From Faecalitalea sp. UBA4312 (GTDB lineage: Bacteria > Bacillota_I > Bacilli_A > Erysipelotrichales > Erysipelotrichaceae): DNA of 11,729 nt. Below, in pieces: positions 1,199-10,370 of the stretch. The position numbers were made by a program, and so were the translations under genes. Position 1 is the first letter of the stretch; every line of letters starts with the position of its first letter. The stretch spans positions 1-11,729 of the forward strand of contig DGUK01000016.1 of the NCBI GenBank assembly GCA_002394635.1. Reading direction: 5' to 3'. Below the pieces are notes generated by a model. It saw only the letters and a program-made list of their open reading frames with translations. It was not told where the DNA came from and did not search any database.

Positions 1199-2092
1199 AT
1201 GAATGCTGAATCAATGAAAGGAACAATCATCAATCTATGTGTTTCGCTGATCATGGTGGTGATCGTTTCCATCCTTCGGATACCGTGGCGGTGGACGTAT
1301 CTGATTCTGTATGCGTACGTTCTTTTTTCTATGGGTCTTTGTGTTATACGGGCTTCGGAATTGTATGATACCGCTCTGGATTTGCCTTTGCTGCATAAGA
1401 TCGATCAGGATCCGTTTGGACACCGGATCTTATCCGATCCGGCGTTTCGGAATATACTCATTTTATCTGTTGAGGTCGTTATCCATTCGATTTACGGTCT
1501 GCTCAACTTATTTATGGGCATAACGCAGCATTCCTTATGGCATGCCTCGGTTTCCGTCTATTACATTCTATTAAGCTTTATACGGGCATATCTGGTATAT
1601 AGCTATCGTAAGGCAGTGCGTCAGCCTTCCTATGTCCGGAACCGAAAAATCGAATTAAAAGCCTATTGTGTAACAGGCTTATTTCTTTTCTTTTTGAATA
1701 TTGCGATTTCATTGATGACAGGACATATGGTTGTAACCAACCCGTTGTTCGGATATACAAAGCTGTCGATCATTTCATCGGCTGTATTTACCATCTATAT
1801 TTTCAATTTGGCTTTGTATAATATCATTCACTACCGGAAGATGGAGAGCCCGATCTTGACGGCATCCAAAAATATCAACATGGCGGCCGCTTTACTGGCT
1901 ATATATAACTTTCAGATCATATTGATCAAAATTCTGCATATGGACAATGCCGCTATGCGCTGGATCAATGGTACAACAGGCACGATCATCAATATTTATC
2001 TACTCTATCTCTCGTTCCATATGATCCTGCGGGGATACCGTAAGACTAAGAGGCTAACTGTACAATACGGACACCACCAAGAACCGCAATAA
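1199..2092 (+). CDS. Polytopic membrane protein of unknown function
   Basis: I do not recognise this 297-residue protein. It has about eight hydrophobic stretches long enough to cross the membrane, near residues 8-26, 31-50, 85-107, 113-135, 153-174, 187-211, 225-244 and 258-280, joined by short basic loops such as RKAVRQ and HYRKMES. There is no cleavable signal peptide. The C-terminus is basic and hydrophilic (RGYRKTKRLTVQYGHHQEPQ) and probably cytosolic. The start ATG is preceded by GGAAGGA with a rather long spacer of about 12 bases; Met6 is an alternative start without a better site. It follows the HAD phosphatase gene by 20 bp and is probably in the same operon. Its last 47 bp overlap the convergent gene for a secreted protein. 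A transporter, receptor or enzyme role is all possible. Confidence 0.85.
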   Translation: MNAESMKGTIINLCVSLIMVVIVSILRIPWRWTYLILYAYVLFSMGLCVIRASELYDTALDLPLLHKIDQDPFGHRILSDPAFRNILILSVEVVIHSIYGLLNLFMGITQHSLWHASVSVYYILLSFIRAYLVYSYRKAVRQPSYVRNRKIELKAYCVTGLFLFFLNIAISLMTGHMVVTNPLFGYTKLSIISSAVFTIYIFNLALYNIIHYRKMESPILTASKNINMAAALLAIYNFQIILIKILHMDNAAMRWINGTTGTIINIYLLYLSFHMILRGYRKTKRLTVQYGHHQEPQ

Positions 2093-2693
2093 GATCTTTT
2101 GTATCCGGCAGATGCTTTTGATCTCCTGTATAGGTGATGTTGATTTCCAGACTGTAAGCATCCAGATCTAGATAACACGATGTTTTTTGATAGTAGACAG
2201 ATTGATAAACTTCTTTGGAATCTGCTTTGTAGGTGGTGGTAAAGCAGGTGAAGATCTTTGAATTTACCTGGATCGTTTCAGCTTCCGGCTGGGATTCTAT
2301 TGTAACTGTATATGTATCTAGAAAGTCTTCATCAAAAACCTTTTCCAGTTTCTTTGCTCTTTTTTGATCCATCTCGATCTGTTGATCAAAGGATGTGTCT
2401 TCCAGGTTATATAAAGAATAATGAACCTGAAAAGCTTCTTTCTTTACTTTGGGAACACATTCTACATAAAGATTGGTTTGTTCAGCATTTTTATATTTTG
2501 TTGCTGTATCGACCGTATAATAGCTTTTGATCATTAAGCGGACTGTATCCAGAAACAATGGATAATACCCTTGTTTATCCGGTACTGTGGCTGTATAACG
2601 ACTGTCTTCTGTCTCATTGTGAGCATAGACAGCAACAGGCTGCAAACATAAACACAAGGTCAATAAAATGGAAATGAATTTTTTATAATGCAT
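2046..2693 (-). CDS. Secreted protein of unknown function with signal peptide
   Basis: A 215-residue protein that I cannot assign to a family. The N-terminus is a clear Sec signal peptide: MHYKK, a hydrophobic core (FISILLTLCLCLQPVAV), and a probable signal peptidase I site after Tyr-Ala at residue 24. The two cysteines in the core do not form a lipobox, since the cleavage-proximal sequence is VYA-HNE. The mature part, about 190 residues, has alternating polar and hydrophobic stretches rich in Tyr, Thr and Lys, suggesting a beta-rich extracellular domain. No membrane anchor or LPXTG motif is seen. The start is well supported by AAAAGGAG (2708-2701), seven bases upstream. Its 3' end overlaps the convergent membrane protein gene by 47 bp, so antisense interference between the two transcripts is possible. 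Confidence 0.85.
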   Translation of the reverse strand: MHYKKFISILLTLCLCLQPVAVYAHNETEDSRYTATVPDKQGYYPLFLDTVRLMIKSYYTVDTATKYKNAEQTNLYVECVPKVKKEAFQVHYSLYNLEDTSFDQQIEMDQKRAKKLEKVFDEDFLDTYTVTIESQPEAETIQVNSKIFTCFTTTYKADSKEVYQSVYYQKTSCYLDLDAYSLEINITYTGDQKHLPDTKDLIAVLGGVRIVQLAS

Positions 2694-5648: not shown

Positions 5649-5674
5649 TAAAAAAGCTTCCATCAAGGAAGCTT
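5648..5674 (-). terminator. Intrinsic terminator of the glycyl radical enzyme operon
   Basis: On the minus strand AAGCTTCC, loop TTGAT and GGAAGCTT form a perfect 8-bp stem (5674-5654), followed by a run of T ending TTTTTATTG. The stem starts within the nanE stop codon. It ends the GRE-activase-DeoR-nanE transcript before the rho promoter. Confidence 0.88.
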
Positions 5675-6422
5675 AGTGTTTGGCTTTTTCTGCATCTCGC
5701 CAGTTGTCCTGGTAACCACTTAATAGATCCACGAAGCGCTTGGCTGTCAGATGCGGCCGCGTAATGGCACTGCCGACAACCACTGCATGAGCACCTAAGA
5801 AGATACATTTCATGGCATCTTCCGGTGTATACAAATGGCCTTCCATCATAACATAGGCATCCTTTCCACATTCCCGGCACATTTGGGCAAACATACGATA
5901 ATCGGCGCCTTCGATATGTGCGGTTTCTTTGGTATACCCATAGAGTGTCGGTGCCACGATATCCGCCCCGTTTTCAATAGCATGTTTGGCTTCTTCAATA
6001 TTGGATACATCCGCAAAGAAAATAGCTTCCGGAATTTCTTTTTTCGCTTGTTTTAACAGATCCCAGGCCTTTGTTCCTTCATGGGTGATCTGAGCTGTAC
6101 AATCTAAGGCAATGATTTCAGCACCGGCTTCCCAGATAGCCCGAACCTCCTTCATGGTCGGAGTGATAAAGACATCGGTATCATCATGCCATACTTTCCA
6201 TAGTCCGATCACCGGCAGGTCTACAGCTTCTTTGATTTCTTTGATTTGTTTTGGGTCATTGGCACGTAAACCGACAGCACCGGCCCATTTAGCTGCCTGT
6301 GCCATCTTTACATGCATGGTCTCTGTGTAGATTGGATCATCCGGTTGCGTCTGGCAGGATACGATCAGGCCGCCTTTCATACTTTCCAAAAGCGCATGTT
6401 TCTTTGGATCTGTTGTCTTCAT
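5673..6422 (-). CDS. nanE: NanE-like N-acylglucosamine-6-phosphate (ManNAc-6-P) 2-epimerase
   Basis: A 249-residue TIM-barrel protein of the NanE family, which in known cases converts ManNAc-6-phosphate to GlcNAc-6-phosphate in sialic acid and ManNAc use. Residues aligning with known active-site positions are visible: Arg53 in GLRANDP, Lys76 in PVIGLWK, Asp138 in FFADVS, Glu194 in MMEGH, and the phosphate-binding GSAITRP near the C-terminus. Two motifs differ from those I remember for NanE: APTLYGYT where GTTL-GYT is usual, and MMEGH where an AEG core is usual. The start has a strong AGGAGG seven bases upstream that overlaps the stop codon of the DeoR gene; gap 13 bp. A longer frame to 6560 overlaps the regulator and is rejected. 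No nanA, nanK or transporter gene is in the window, so the substrate may not be a sialic acid product. Family call firm, substrate open. Confidence 0.85.
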   Translation of the reverse strand: MKTTDPKKHALLESMKGGLIVSCQTQPDDPIYTETMHVKMAQAAKWAGAVGLRANDPKQIKEIKEAVDLPVIGLWKVWHDDTDVFITPTMKEVRAIWEAGAEIIALDCTAQITHEGTKAWDLLKQAKKEIPEAIFFADVSNIEEAKHAIENGADIVAPTLYGYTKETAHIEGADYRMFAQMCRECGKDAYVMMEGHLYTPEDAMKCIFLGAHAVVVGSAITRPHLTAKRFVDLLSGYQDNWRDAEKAKH

Positions 6423-6435
6423 TTTTCTTTTCCTC

Positions 6436-7197
6436 CTATTGACATACAGTAAAATTATCAGGTAAATCAGTGGACAGGGTCCATTGATCGATGTATACAT
6501 GAACAAAATCATCGGCGTGTGCCCAACAACACAAAGCGTGTTGATTGAATTTGGACGCATCCATTAACAAGGAACAGTCAGAACATCGTTCCATTACAGC
6601 TTTTTTCATAGCGCCGATGGAAATGTCGAATACATATACTTCGCCATTTTTTGCGTTCAGTCCATTGGCTGTCAAAAAAGCTTTATCGAAATGAAACCGT
6701 GCGATCATTTCCATGGTCAAGGGACCAAAGGATGTATCGTACGCTTTTTTGAATTGGCCGCCCAGTAAAAAGATATCCCCGGTGAAATCATTTGGCAGTT
6801 TCTGTACAAAATATGTATTCGGGGTAACAATGGTTACTTGTTTGTTCTGAATGAATTCCAGCAGAAAGGCGGCCGTTGTACCAGAATCAATATAAATACA
6901 ATCCCCGTCCTGGATAGACTGTGCTGCTTTCTGACAAATACATCGTTTTTCATCAGCGTGGATAAATTCCTTATCCACTGTCGCGATTTCATGATAAGAA
7001 GTCAGTGTCTTTCCCAGGTCCTTTAAGGAAGCACCACCTCTTTCACGAATGATCAGTCCTTGTTTTTCCAATTCATCCAGGTCACGCATAACACTGGAAC
7101 GAGATGTCTGCAGCATCTGCATCAAGTCCTTGATTGTGACCGAGGACTGTTGATGCAGCAGTTCCATGATGCGGATACTTCTTTCTTTCGATAACAT
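6436..7197 (-). CDS. DeoR-family transcriptional regulator
   Basis: A 253-residue DeoR-type repressor. The N-terminal winged helix-turn-helix (residues 1-57) has the family pattern VTIKDLMQMLQTSRSSVMRD followed by LDELEKQGLIIRERGGA. The C-terminal DeoRC sensor domain, which resembles ribose-5-phosphate isomerase and usually binds a sugar phosphate, contains YIDSGTTA and LLMDASKF. The start ATG has GGAGG seven bases upstream and lies two bases after the activase stop codon. It sits third in the operon, between the activase and nanE genes, so it is probably autoregulated. The 10-bp phased WTCA repeats in the divergent promoter upstream of the operon are its most likely target (inference). The position implies that the inducer is a phosphorylated sugar-like intermediate of this pathway. 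Confidence 0.92.
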   Translation of the reverse strand: MLSKERSIRIMELLHQQSSVTIKDLMQMLQTSRSSVMRDLDELEKQGLIIRERGGASLKDLGKTLTSYHEIATVDKEFIHADEKRCICQKAAQSIQDGDCIYIDSGTTAAFLLEFIQNKQVTIVTPNTYFVQKLPNDFTGDIFLLGGQFKKAYDTSFGPLTMEMIARFHFDKAFLTANGLNAKNGEVYVFDISIGAMKKAVMERCSDCSLLMDASKFNQHALCCWAHADDFVHVYIDQWTLSTDLPDNFTVCQ

Positions 7198-7199
7198 GT

Positions 7200-8084
7200 T
7201 CAGCCTCCGATCTTCACTTCTACATGGTATTGTTTGCCTAATTCTATATAAGGTGTCAATTGTGCCGGATCCATCATAGGGAAGTCATAGAGATAGGTTT
7301 TATGCAGCTGTTCCCATTTCGTTTTCCCCATGGAATGATAAGGAAGGAAATTGGCTTGTTGAATGCCTAAACGGGCATCCAGCTCCAATATGGATCTTAA
7401 TGTTTCCGGATCATCATTAAAGGTGGGGATGACCGGTGTCCTGGATATGACCTTCTTTGGATCCAGATATGACAAATTGATGATGATTTGTTCCCAGTTT
7501 CCCCCGGTGACTTCCTTCAGTTTTTTTGCATCTGTATGTTTGACATCAAACAAAAACAAGTCGATATACGGCTCTGCCTGTTTCAATAATTCAAGCGGAT
7601 AGCTGCCTGTTGTTTCCACAGCGACATGCAGGTTTTCCTTCTTAAAAGCCTGGATCAACTGCAGGAATCCTTCAAACTGTACAAAAGGTTCGCCTCCGGA
7701 AACGGTGACACCTCCATGGCTCATATCGTAATAATCCTTGTCCTTCAATACTTCCTGAACGATATCTCGTATCTCCATCGGCTGTCCATTGAGAGTCAAT
7801 GCGTTTTGCAGACAGTGATCCACACATTGCCCGCAGTGATGGCATAGGGCCGGATCCCAGTGAAAGGATGGCACAAAGGAAATGGCCTGATAAGGACATA
7901 TCTTCGCACATGTTTGGCAATGGATACATTTTCCGCTGTTGTGCATCAATACGGGAGACACTGTCCAGGTTTCCGGATTGGCACACCATGGACAGTGCAG
8001 GGGGCATCCTTTCAAAAAGACGGTGGTACGGATCCCTGGTCCATCATGGGTGGCAAATTTTTCAATATTCGATACATTAATCAT
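7200..8084 (-). CDS. Glycyl radical enzyme activating enzyme (radical SAM)
   Basis: A 294-residue radical SAM activase, which uses S-adenosylmethionine and a reduced 4Fe-4S cluster to abstract hydrogen from the glycyl residue of its partner enzyme. HDGPGIRT (residues 13-20) is followed by the radical SAM motif Cys27-x3-Cys31-x2-Cys34. A ferredoxin-like insert carries two complete 4Fe-4S sites, Cys53/56/59/63 and Cys81/84/87/91. GGVTVSGGEP (124-133) is the SAM-binding GGE motif. The extra clusters match activases of dehydratase/lyase-type glycyl radical enzymes rather than the short pyruvate formate-lyase activase. The ATG overlaps the end of the enzyme gene by 8 bp, with AGGA upstream inside that gene, pointing to translational coupling. 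It surely serves the adjacent enzyme. Confidence 0.95.
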   Translation of the reverse strand: MINVSNIEKFATHDGPGIRTTVFLKGCPLHCPWCANPETWTVSPVLMHNSGKCIHCQTCAKICPYQAISFVPSFHWDPALCHHCGQCVDHCLQNALTLNGQPMEIRDIVQEVLKDKDYYDMSHGGVTVSGGEPFVQFEGFLQLIQAFKKENLHVAVETTGSYPLELLKQAEPYIDLFLFDVKHTDAKKLKEVTGGNWEQIIINLSYLDPKKVISRTPVIPTFNDDPETLRSILELDARLGIQQANFLPYHSMGKTKWEQLHKTYLYDFPMMDPAQLTPYIELGKQYHVEVKIGG

Positions 8085-10347
8085 ATAAAGTCCTGCTCAA
8101 TAATTCATCTTGTACATCTTTTGTCAGATTCACAAATACTGCGCTGTAGCCGGCAACCCGTACAATCAGATCTGGGTATTTTTCCGGATGGATCTGGGCA
8201 TCTTCCAAAACCCCGTGATCGACCACTGTCACCATCAGCTGACAACCGCCTTTTTTAAAATACGTTTGAAATAACAGTTTCACTTTTTCCTTATCCTGGT
8301 GCATCATGCGAGGAGTAAACTTTATATTTTGTACACTGCCCCCATGGTATTTTGCTTTGAATAGGGATAAGGAGTTCAATACCGCTGTCGGTCCGGATCG
8401 GGCGGCACCTCCCTGTGGATTGTTGGCCGGATTCATATAAACACCCCGGTTTCTTCCGTCCAGGGAAGCATCGGTCTGATGTCCCCAATCGGTATTGGTC
8501 TGGTTATTGGAAATGACGATCAGATAATAGCCCATGCCTTCATCGATCCCTCGCTGGCGAATGCCTTTGGCTACAAATTCGTAAAGATCATTGGCCATTT
8601 CATCCACATCCGGGTTATCATTACCGTATTTTGGCAAATCGAGGATTTCTTTCTGCAGTTGCTCATACCCTCGATAATCCGCTAAAGCGGCCTGATTCAA
8701 TTGTTTCAATGAATACTTCTTCTGGTCATATACCAAGGTCTTGATGGCATACAATGCGTCGCTGGCATTGATATTTCCATACGTTTCATTGGTACCCCCA
8801 AGGATCCGTACGCCCCCATCGAGAAGTGCTTTTTGCCGGTGGATACAATCATCCATCAAGATCGAAGTAAACAGGAAGGAAACCTCCTGATTCATAACTT
8901 CATAGCTGTGCCTCTGGCAGTAAACACTCAGATCAAAATAGAAGTTCAATAATTCTTTATACTGGTTATAAAAATCATCAAAGGCTTGAAAAGAAGACAA
9001 CGGTTTGACTTTGACAGGGCCCGCCCTGTAAACATGATCCATCGGATCATACCCTTCATTGAGGGCTAACTGCATGATCTTGACCAGGTTTAACAGCGTA
9101 TTCGGGGTTCCGACACTTTGCCCCTGGATCACAAATTCACCGCATCCAAACGGGACATACTGCTCTGCCGTTTTCCGGTCAACACGCATCGCATACTGCA
9201 CGGCAGGTACATTGACATCATCGTTGTATAATGTCGGATAGGTGGCCCCACTGGCAATGCATTCATAGGCCATGTCCATAATATCCGCTGGTGTGTTCTG
9301 ATCAAAACGTAAGGTAAACTGAGGCTCAACATATCTTGTATCTTTACAGACACGTAGACAAATACGGGTAAATAAATCACACGCTTCCACATCCTCACGT
9401 CCCTGGCCACCGACGATGATCCGTCCATTGACGGTCGTTCTGCGATTTTCAATCATTTTCCACAGTGATTTTACAATGCGATAGGCCTGTTCTTCATCCA
9501 AGATCCCGGTATCAATATCATGTTTTAAGAAAGGGCCTAATACGATGTCCATGCGCCCGTAATTGATACAGCCGGCACATAAGGCATACAGCCAGAATAA
9601 CTGTAAAGCCTGTCGGAAGGTTTCGGGTTTATGATCTTTGATAAAGAGAAGATCAAAGCGCATCTGCTGCAATTCTTCTTTTCTTTTTCTATCTTCGCTC
9701 TCTTGGTAAGCCTGCTCAACCAATTCGATCTGTCGATCAATGACCTGTACAAACAGATGCATGGCCTCCATACAGGCTTGGATAAAATCATTCTGTGGCT
9801 GTGCGCCAATCAAGCGCATTAGACCGGGAATGCCAAGATTGACCAGTTTCTTATAATCGAGCATCATACCACTTAAACGGGCCGTTGCCATAAACGGATA
9901 TGTGCAATCGATAAAGCGACCTGTTGTATCCTCATTTAAAACATCTTGACAATAGATAGCTTTGACATCGTGATCCATCCAATAGTCATATAATATATCC
10001 ACACGAGCTTTCTGCTCCGGTGTTTCCAAAGTATCTTTAAAGGCTCTTAATTTGTGGAACACACAATAGTGACCTACACCACCGATGGATGTAACGGAAC
10101 CAAATCCGATCGGCAAAAAATCCAGACGTCCAGCAATCAGATCCCCATCTTCTATATGACGGAATAAAACCGGAAAAATGGTTTTCAGACAACGGATCTC
10201 CCGTTGCGCTTTGGATGATCCTTCACTTTCCTTATGGGCTTGGGTATAAGCTTCCATGATCTCCAATTGTTCTAACGGACTCTTTTCACACGGAATTTTT
10301 ACAGAGACTTCTACATTCTGTGCTCCATCAATACGAATTCGTTTCAT
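8077..10347 (-). CDS. Glycyl radical enzyme, PFL-like superfamily, reaction unassigned
   Basis: A 756-residue glycyl radical enzyme. The C-terminal radical motif is VRVAGYSAVF with Gly733. The active-site thiyl loop is PFGCGEFVIQGQSVGTPN with Cys402 and Glu404. Pyruvate formate-lyase would have two adjacent cysteines, so that activity is not expected despite likely database labels. The Cys-x-Glu pattern is that of glycerol, propanediol, choline and related dehydratases/lyases, but those normally have Cys-Val-Glu and here the middle residue is Gly. The linker before the radical domain reads NPANNPQGGAARSGPTAV, also atypical, and the N-terminus (MKRIRIDGAQNVEVSVKIPC) is unfamiliar to me. The start ATG has AGAGGTG six bases upstream; an in-frame GTG nine bases earlier lies inside that site. 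First gene of the operon with its activase, a DeoR repressor and nanE. Substrate unknown; a phosphorylated polyol or sugar is a reasonable guess. Confidence 0.93.
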   Translation of the reverse strand: MKRIRIDGAQNVEVSVKIPCEKSPLEQLEIMEAYTQAHKESEGSSKAQREIRCLKTIFPVLFRHIEDGDLIAGRLDFLPIGFGSVTSIGGVGHYCVFHKLRAFKDTLETPEQKARVDILYDYWMDHDVKAIYCQDVLNEDTTGRFIDCTYPFMATARLSGMMLDYKKLVNLGIPGLMRLIGAQPQNDFIQACMEAMHLFVQVIDRQIELVEQAYQESEDRKRKEELQQMRFDLLFIKDHKPETFRQALQLFWLYALCAGCINYGRMDIVLGPFLKHDIDTGILDEEQAYRIVKSLWKMIENRRTTVNGRIIVGGQGREDVEACDLFTRICLRVCKDTRYVEPQFTLRFDQNTPADIMDMAYECIASGATYPTLYNDDVNVPAVQYAMRVDRKTAEQYVPFGCGEFVIQGQSVGTPNTLLNLVKIMQLALNEGYDPMDHVYRAGPVKVKPLSSFQAFDDFYNQYKELLNFYFDLSVYCQRHSYEVMNQEVSFLFTSILMDDCIHRQKALLDGGVRILGGTNETYGNINASDALYAIKTLVYDQKKYSLKQLNQAALADYRGYEQLQKEILDLPKYGNDNPDVDEMANDLYEFVAKGIRQRGIDEGMGYYLIVISNNQTNTDWGHQTDASLDGRNRGVYMNPANNPQGGAARSGPTAVLNSLSLFKAKYHGGSVQNIKFTPRMMHQDKEKVKLLFQTYFKKGGCQLMVTVVDHGVLEDAQIHPEKYPDLIVRVAGYSAVFVNLTKDVQDELLSRTLYD

Positions 10348-10370
10348 CCTGGTCACCTCTCTTTACTTAC

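Follow-up and report, generated by a model that had tools for sequence, protein, structure and literature searches.

A deep-branching clade of glycyl radical enzymes with a NanE-like epimerase as partner: a tentative link to sugar 6-phosphates

Which reaction is catalysed by a glycyl radical enzyme (GRE) that carries the active-site residues of the known eliminases of its family and yet stays below the cut-off of every listed profile of the family? The question is raised by an 11,729-nucleotide stretch of DNA from Faecalitalea sp. UBA4312 (contig DGUK01000016.1; this whole stretch is called the window below), in which a gene for such an enzyme stands first in a four-gene operon. Known GRE eliminases underlie prominent gut chemistry, acting on choline, hydroxyproline, sulfonates and anhydrosugars. 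The window GRE belongs to a clade that branches apart from all eliminases in our trees and is accompanied with unusual regularity by a sugar 2-epimerase related to NanE, a partnership that renders the substrate class testable. The neighbouring genes suggest a substrate class for this deep-branching clade of oxygen-sensitive enzymes, the substrate probably being a phosphorylated hexose.

A separate clade of glycyl radical enzymes

The protein contains a PFL-like domain (PF02901, 399.9 bits) and a C-terminal glycyl radical domain (PF01228, 90 bits) according to Pfam, and structure comparison assigns it the fold of solved GREs. A sequence-only reading of the window had seen no obvious known reaction for this enzyme and had proposed placing it among characterised GREs. 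Its first statement stands: the protein scores under the cut-off of every listed NCBIfam GRE model by a factor of two or more, and in trees with PflD, YbiW, CutC and HypD it falls into a clade of its own with an SH-aLRT support of 100. The distance from this clade to these four enzymes is about twice the distances among them, as measured from four clade rows (the window, L061, L010 and L012) of which two are long-branched, and the identity to them is about 26-29%. The trees are 'quick' IQ-TREE trees with SH-aLRT as the sole support measure, and 31 of the 82 available clade sequences served as rows; the first had no HypD rows, while the second included four and omitted eight others (two long-branched, six for thinning), and in it the long branches of CutC and HypD meet. 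We found no paper on this clade in the open-licence PMC literature.

The known activities were compared individually, and pyruvate formate-lyase, CutC and HypD were rejected. Pyruvate formate-lyase had already been discounted in the sequence-only reading, and indeed the active site reads Gly-Cys-Gly-Glu, with no Cys-Cys, and TIGR01255 gives 85.8 bits against a cut-off of 994.2. The corresponding values are 246.3 against 1050 bits for CutC (TIGR04394; 26.1-29.3% identity), 264.6 against 1100 for HypD (NF043068; 25.6-26.9%) and 196.9-231.5 against 1000-1150 for sulfopropanediol dehydratase and the 4-hydroxyphenylacetate and indoleacetate decarboxylases (NF048009, NF048011, NF033715 and NF033718). 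Isethionate sulfite-lyase (7kq3), compared as a structure match only, is matched by the clade profile with 227.9 bits. The B12-independent glycerol/propanediol dehydratase has the highest Foldseek ranks and the same Cys-x-Glu chemistry, but His164 (in a Val-Gly-His segment), Ser282 and Asp447 of the Clostridium butyricum glycerol dehydratase, which we take to be active-site residues, align with a gap, Cys/Val260 and the invariant Asn416, respectively, and the clade loop before IVGG is shorter and rich in Arg (RRTTVNGR). Although the fold and the radical machinery are shared, it is thus most improbable that the window GRE is a known diol dehydratase, choline lyase, hydroxyproline dehydratase, sulfite lyase, arylacetate decarboxylase or pyruvate formate-lyase in disguise.

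Active-site residues

Cys402, Glu404 and Gly733 are each present in all 78 sequences of the clade alignment, as are the Cys-x-Glu eliminase motif and the glycyl loop, which extends to the whole clade the earlier observation that the radical Gly and the thiyl Cys are intact. The window GRE reads PFGCGEFVIQG at the active site and RVAGYSA at the glycyl loop; the replacement of GCVE by GCGEFV was therefore described correctly, and the E. coli PflD sequence does carry GCVE, as that reading had stated, the motif of YbiW being GCIE. Between Cys and Glu, 35 of the 78 clade members have Gly and 43 have Thr. Of the 33 GREs outside the clade whose motif could be read (37 rows, less three clade sequences and one unreadable row), 32 have Val and one, YbiW, has Ile; of four HypD sequences, three have Val and one has Ile. 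We nevertheless dropped Gly403 as a catalytic novelty, because Thr is equally common at this position within the clade. The segment NPANNPQGGAARSGPTAV of the window GRE had likewise been noted as unusual, and rightly so: its NPANN part is the same in all 78 clade sequences, variable in four more distant members and absent from E. coli PflD and YbiW in the alignment.

Further residues invariant in the 78 sequences are Arg157, Arg302, Arg303, Asn307, Arg309, Asn416, Asn614, Asn615 and Asn618, some of which fall at or beside presumed pocket positions when aligned to glycerol dehydratase. The four Arg and several of the Asn residues would suit a polyhydroxylated phosphate ester.

Distribution of the clade

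Some GRE match occurs in 54 of 60 related genomes (that of the window included). A copy of this subfamily, whether complete, partial or broken, is present in 15 of the 60 at 47-100% identity and stands clear of other GREs at about 30%, which speaks against a chance occurrence. A class-wide search found the clade in 10/395 genomes at E <= 1e-180. A scan of GTDB contigs yielded 153 stretches that encode a relative of the window GRE. All locus counts below refer to the best 80 of these 153 (59-82% identity) and for this reason favour close relatives. Judged by their record titles, the 80 loci come from Erysipelotrichaceae, Enterococcus, Listeria immobilis, Lacticaseibacillus, Lachnospiraceae and other Clostridia, as well as Bacteroidia, Spirochaetaceae and Actinomycetota. 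Among the hosts of the clade are Bacillota, Bacteroidota, Actinomycetota and spirochaetes of gut and rumen. One clade copy (L034, on contig C63 of G003) is broken by an in-frame stop, perhaps through decay or an assembly error.

The NanE-like partner

Partner genes were counted with tblastn within 5 kb of the GRE gene; 53 of the 80 loci are full-flank, having 4 kb or more on either side of it. This recount replaced earlier open reading frame (ORF) calls, which were mechanical and left some genes hidden under antisense ORFs, and neighbours without a profile scan are named by cluster or by eye. An activase, which the sequence-only reading had correctly placed next to the window GRE, is found near the GRE in 75/80 loci. 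A NanE-like gene, which that reading had not mentioned, is part of the window operon, and a NanE of this GRE-type (at least 46% identity) lies within 5 kb in 63/80 loci and in 45/53 full-flank ones. For the remaining eight full-flank loci, the epimerase is encoded elsewhere in the genome in G428, G012, G430 and G433, and none was found in G427, G045, G432 and G440. Other partners are a DeoR-family regulator (41/80), a ROK kinase (22/80), the GH94-like family c14 (9/80), EIID of a mannose-type phosphotransferase system (PTS; 6/80) and a fructose-type EIIBC (3/80).

The active site of Staphylococcus aureus NanE, as given in PMC8482478, comprises Gln11, Arg40, Lys63, Asp124, Glu180 and Arg208, with Tyr149 and Phe72 near the acetamide, and these residues bind an open-chain aldose 6-phosphate and epimerise it at C2. 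In the alignment of the GRE-linked cluster (57 GRE-type sequences and one ordinary NanE), Phe72 is kept in 54/58 and each of the other seven residues in 58/58. The second signature motif is likewise retained and the profile score exceeds its cut-off (table 1), whereas the first motif is altered to Ile-Gly-Leu-Trp/Tyr-Lys-Ile/Val: compared with the signature X-P-X-I-G-I-X-K-basic of the same paper, Leu stands for the second Ile in 56/58 sequences, and the basic residue is replaced by Ile in 38/58 and Val in 16/58. A tree separates 65 GRE-type from 14 ordinary NanE sequences with an SH-aLRT of 99 (the latter include E. coli NanE and a second copy from the window's genome, C21; the ordinary NanE of L181 was left out), and the changed residues lie beside the catalytic ones. 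In 23 hand-picked genomes, many of them chosen for having no NanE near the GRE, a GRE-type NanE (at least 57% identity) was found in 16, only an ordinary one in three and none in four; nine of the 16 have an ordinary NanE as well. Because the fold and the catalytic set are kept, we infer that the NanE-like enzyme would catalyse C2 epimerisation of an open-chain aldose 6-phosphate. Its separate clade and the coexisting ordinary NanE indicate that the substrate is probably something other than N-acetylmannosamine 6-phosphate (ManNAc-6-P), though the retained acetamide contacts speak against this.

The c14 protein, encoded near the GRE in nine loci (among them L090, at 7026-9260 (+)), has no sequence match in the PDB; its predicted fold (pLDDT 72.9) best matches cellobiose-phosphorylase-like (GH94) structures at about 11-16% identity, and it may handle a glycoside, possibly as a new family of glycoside phosphorylases or hydrolases. 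Eight Bacteroidota loci (L079, L080, L084, L085, L091, L100, L109 and L110) encode, near the GRE, a protein with a 3-keto-disaccharide hydrolase domain (PF06439, assigned from one scanned representative, L084), and most of them also have Gfo/Idh oxidoreductases.

Sugar supply and the choice of epimer

Genes for the supply of a phosphorylated sugar (ROK kinase, mannose-type PTS or fructose-type PTS) accompany the GRE in 23/53 full-flank loci. The epimerase is nearby in each of the 15 full-flank loci that have a ROK kinase of at least 30% identity (a sixteenth, weaker match is untabulated) and in five of the six loci with a mannose-type PTS, the sixth having it elsewhere in the genome. Where a fructose-type PTS adjoins the GRE (L048, L074 and L103, from genomes G045, G434 and G440), the genome has neither a GRE-type nor an ordinary NanE at E <= 0.001. 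The gene order in L103, from Candidatus Epulonipiscium viviparus, is EIIA-EIIB-EIIC-GH38-GRE-activase; the GH38 protein reaches 595.7 bits on the mannosylglycerate hydrolase model, under the cut-off of 1138, and EIIC 149.9 bits, just under the fructose EIIC cut-off of 157.55, EIIA and EIIB being named by cluster and by eye. As the fructose-type PTS genomes, including the one with the GH38 gene, go without NanE, the manno form can apparently dispense with an epimerase.

The retained acetamide contacts of the NanE-like enzyme could be taken to mean that the pathway handles an N-acylhexosamine 6-phosphate, in which NanK- and NanE-like steps would precede removal of the C2 amide by a radical reaction, the GRE then being a carbon-nitrogen lyase. 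The three mannose-type EIIC proteins scanned fit this idea in scoring best, under its cut-off, on the N-acetylgalactosamine EIIC model, and so does a NagB-family gene, itself under the NagB cut-offs, in the NanE-like operon L160. We regard such a lyase as unlikely, given that nine of the 16 genomes with a GRE-type NanE keep an ordinary NanE alongside, that the GRE-type forms a distinct clade altered beside its catalytic residues, that the one ROK kinase scanned is nearest to glucokinase (253.8 bits, cut-off 260.35) and not to NanK (135.6 bits, cut-off 450), and that the GH38 protein of L103 points to mannose.

The same kinds of supply genes (PTS; kinase) would also serve a ring-opening lyase of 1,5-anhydrohexitol 6-phosphates. 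PMC12441222 and the titles of PDB entries 8id7 and 8id0 describe YbiW and PflD as cleaving 1,5-anhydroglucitol- and 1,5-anhydromannitol-6-phosphate to 1-deoxyfructose 6-phosphate; this agrees with the sequence-only reading, which had named PflD as such an opener and had distinguished the window GRE from it. The clade shares with PflD and YbiW the GRE fold, Cys-x-Glu, the radical Gly and an activase of its own, PTS genes adjoin pflD as well, YbiW is the third-best structure match of the clade profile (298 bits), a GldA-like gene occurs in 3/80 loci, and the clade GRE of L044 lies near a PflD-like/FSA module. FSA-like genes are found in 15/15 related genomes with the clade GRE versus 26/45 without it, but we rejected this co-occurrence as evidence because many such FSA genes, judged by eye, adjoin other GREs, and FSA appears once in the 80 loci. 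In E. coli, FSA adjoins ybiW, whereas a NanE-like gene adjoins neither pflD nor ybiW. Identity with PflD was rejected on PRK09983 (225.7 bits against a cut-off of 1109, the PflD-like protein of a related genome reaching 1043), and membership in the PflD/YbiW group on the tree, in which the clade stands far off; the identity is 26-27%, and a His common to PflD, YbiW and glycerol dehydratase is missing in the clade. Moreover, an anhydrohexitol has no carbonyl, and the conserved NanE-like enzyme would therefore have no substrate. Anhydrohexitol cleavage is thus an unlikely function; the clade may resemble PflD and YbiW in taking a sugar 6-phosphate and yet be a member of neither.

A possible reaction

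Our preferred proposal, a manno-configured aldohexose 6-phosphate as the substrate of an eliminating reaction, is a tentative one and as a whole would sooner be wrong than right. The substrate part taken singly comes not far short of an even chance, and cleavage of the C2-O bond is rather doubtful. A PTS or ROK kinase would deliver the sugar as its 6-phosphate, and the NanE-like enzyme would interconvert the gluco and manno C2 epimers in their open-chain aldose form, so that the manno epimer could enter the GRE directly and the gluco epimer via the NanE-like enzyme. The activase would generate the Gly733 radical, which would be passed on to Cys402; the resulting thiyl radical would abstract a hydrogen atom from a hydroxyl-bearing carbon, with Glu404, the presumed general base by analogy with known GRE eliminases, accepting the hydroxyl proton, and a neighbouring carbon-oxygen bond would break to give a deoxy-keto sugar phosphate. 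As leaving group we prefer the axial 2-OH of mannose 6-phosphate, since the pathway would in that case benefit from a C2 epimerase.

Several observations weigh against this proposal. No activity is known for the clade and we found no ligand-bound structure of a member. Mannose 6-phosphate is a metabolically odd substrate, since an ordinary ManA would handle it, and the NanE-like enzyme retains the ManNAc-6-P contacts Tyr149 and Phe72. In 30 of the 53 full-flank loci no supply gene of the kinds sought is seen within 5 kb, and 25 of these 30 have the epimerase; the window, too, shows no ROK kinase or PTS of the types sought. In the assembly of L098, which has a ROK kinase, the only NanE is of the ordinary type (39%). 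L041 shows no supply gene and has no GRE-type NanE. L070 has no GRE-type NanE either, with a GH38 gene at a distance of about 6 kb and a fructose-type EIIC (by cluster) at about 9 kb; L096 (G438, a 1.2 Mb assembly) is a further exception without GRE-type NanE. Finally, the fructose-PTS argument concerns three genomes, with completeness known for G045 only, and in L064 the epimerase is present together with a nearby mannosylglycerate PTS and hydrolase. If the proposal is true, the chemistry of GREs extends to cleaving an ordinary reducing sugar phosphate directly by a radical route, and the NanE fold has a second job.

deoC and other genes downstream

No downstream gene is constant, FucO- or GldA-like genes being near the GRE in few loci. 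A deoC gene is present in 8/80 loci, in some of them paired with an RmlD-like gene (L038 and L044) or a Gfo/Idh gene; L106 and L112 combine, within a single stretch, deoC, a Gfo/Idh gene, a NanE-like gene, the GRE, the activase and a gene resembling manA. The density of deoC in relatives (110 copies in 60 genomes, counted by hand) predicts about one copy in the 1.40 Mb of the 80 loci, which span other phyla too, and the mean copy number is 3.0 in the 15 relatives with the GRE and 1.4 in the 45 without. These figures, and the deoC gene adjoining another GRE type of the window's genome, would fit a polyol-phosphate dehydratase making a 2-deoxyaldose phosphate for DeoC. However, DeoC was rejected as a universal step because G037, a one-contig genome with the GRE and the epimerase, has no deoC at E <= 1e-20; an alditol offers the epimerase no carbonyl, and deoC also occurs with NanE-type and RmlD-like genes away from the GRE (L157 and L159). 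A polyol-phosphate dehydratase is accordingly very unlikely.

About as improbable is a variant of our proposal that would be a radical counterpart of the phosphoketolase split. In it, the GRE would dehydrate mannose 6-phosphate to a 2-deoxy-3-keto sugar phosphate, the RmlD-like or Gfo/Idh reductase would convert this into a 2-deoxyhexose 6-phosphate, and DeoC would cleave the latter into acetaldehyde and erythrose 4-phosphate. Owing to G037, the variant cannot cover every member; if true, anaerobes split hexose phosphate into C2 and C4 units without phosphoketolase.

Other GREs were seen beside deoC. On contig C33 of the window's genome, a different GRE (L156 5626-7977 (-)) directly adjoins deoC (7993-8703 (-)); L158 and L032 have this pair too, the three GREs form a clade, and the L156 enzyme looks like an alditol-phosphate dehydratase feeding DeoC. 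L074, from Epulopiscium, encodes a very divergent second GRE (6330-8660 (+), branch 4.72), followed by alcohol dehydrogenase-like and FGGY-type kinase-like genes (by eye), GldA and DeoC. In L157 (4913-8279 (+)), deoC, RmlD-like, ManA-like and GRE-type NanE genes stand together and adjoin a PflD-like GRE and FSA, the clade GRE of that genome being on another contig.

Organization of the locus

The operon comprises, in this order and in the same direction, the genes for the GRE, its activase, the DeoR-family regulator and the NanE-like epimerase, each overlapping the next or separated from it by a few bases (table 1); the activase gene overlaps the 3' end of the GRE gene by 8 nt. The GRE coordinates agree with those of the sequence-only reading. 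The ORF list has a longer version with a GTG start (8077-10356 (-)), to which we prefer the ATG at 10347, because AGAGAGG ends 8 nt ahead of it, relatives start at the same residue (M-A-R-I-N-I-D-G) and the GTG sits within the ribosome-binding-site-like sequence. The start of the NanE-like gene was set at the ATG at 6434, the listed ORF (5673-6560) being too long.

Table 1. Features of the GRE operon in the window.
Feature	Position	Strand	Basis
Ribosome-binding-site-like AGAGAGGTGA upstream of GRE ATG	10353..10362	-	direct reading
Glycyl radical enzyme (GRE), 756 aa	8077..10347	-	Pfam/NCBIfam profiles, alignments, trees
Codon of thiyl-radical Cys402	9142..9144	-	78/78; counted from ATG 10347
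Codon of Gly403 (x of Cys-x-Glu)	9139..9141	-	clade alignment
Codon of Glu404, presumed general base	9136..9138	-	78/78; role by analogy with known GRE eliminases
Codon of radical Gly733 (RVAGYSA)	8149..8151	-	78/78; PF01228
Radical SAM activase of GRE, 294 aa, 4Fe-4S ferredoxin motifs (Fer4 matches)	7200..8084	-	TIGR02494 308.9 bits, cut-off 174.35
DeoR-family regulator	6436..7197	-	PF00455 and PF08220
NanE-like sugar-6-phosphate 2-epimerase, 253 aa	5673..6434	-	NF002231 250.9 bits, cut-off 189 (longer ORF scanned)
Terminator-like hairpin and T run at end of NanE-like gene	5654..5674	-	hairpin search

The hairpin is the probable end of the operon, a weak indication by itself given that seven terminator-like sites were seen in the region and 6.0 are expected from shuffles. 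Beyond it, downstream of the operon, lies rho, and a HAD-family hydrolase gene (Pfam) is divergently oriented upstream of the GRE gene. Elsewhere in the window, two genes whose proteins have no Pfam or NCBIfam match at E <= 0.001 (1199-2092 (+) and 2046-2693 (-)) overlap tail to tail by 47 bases.

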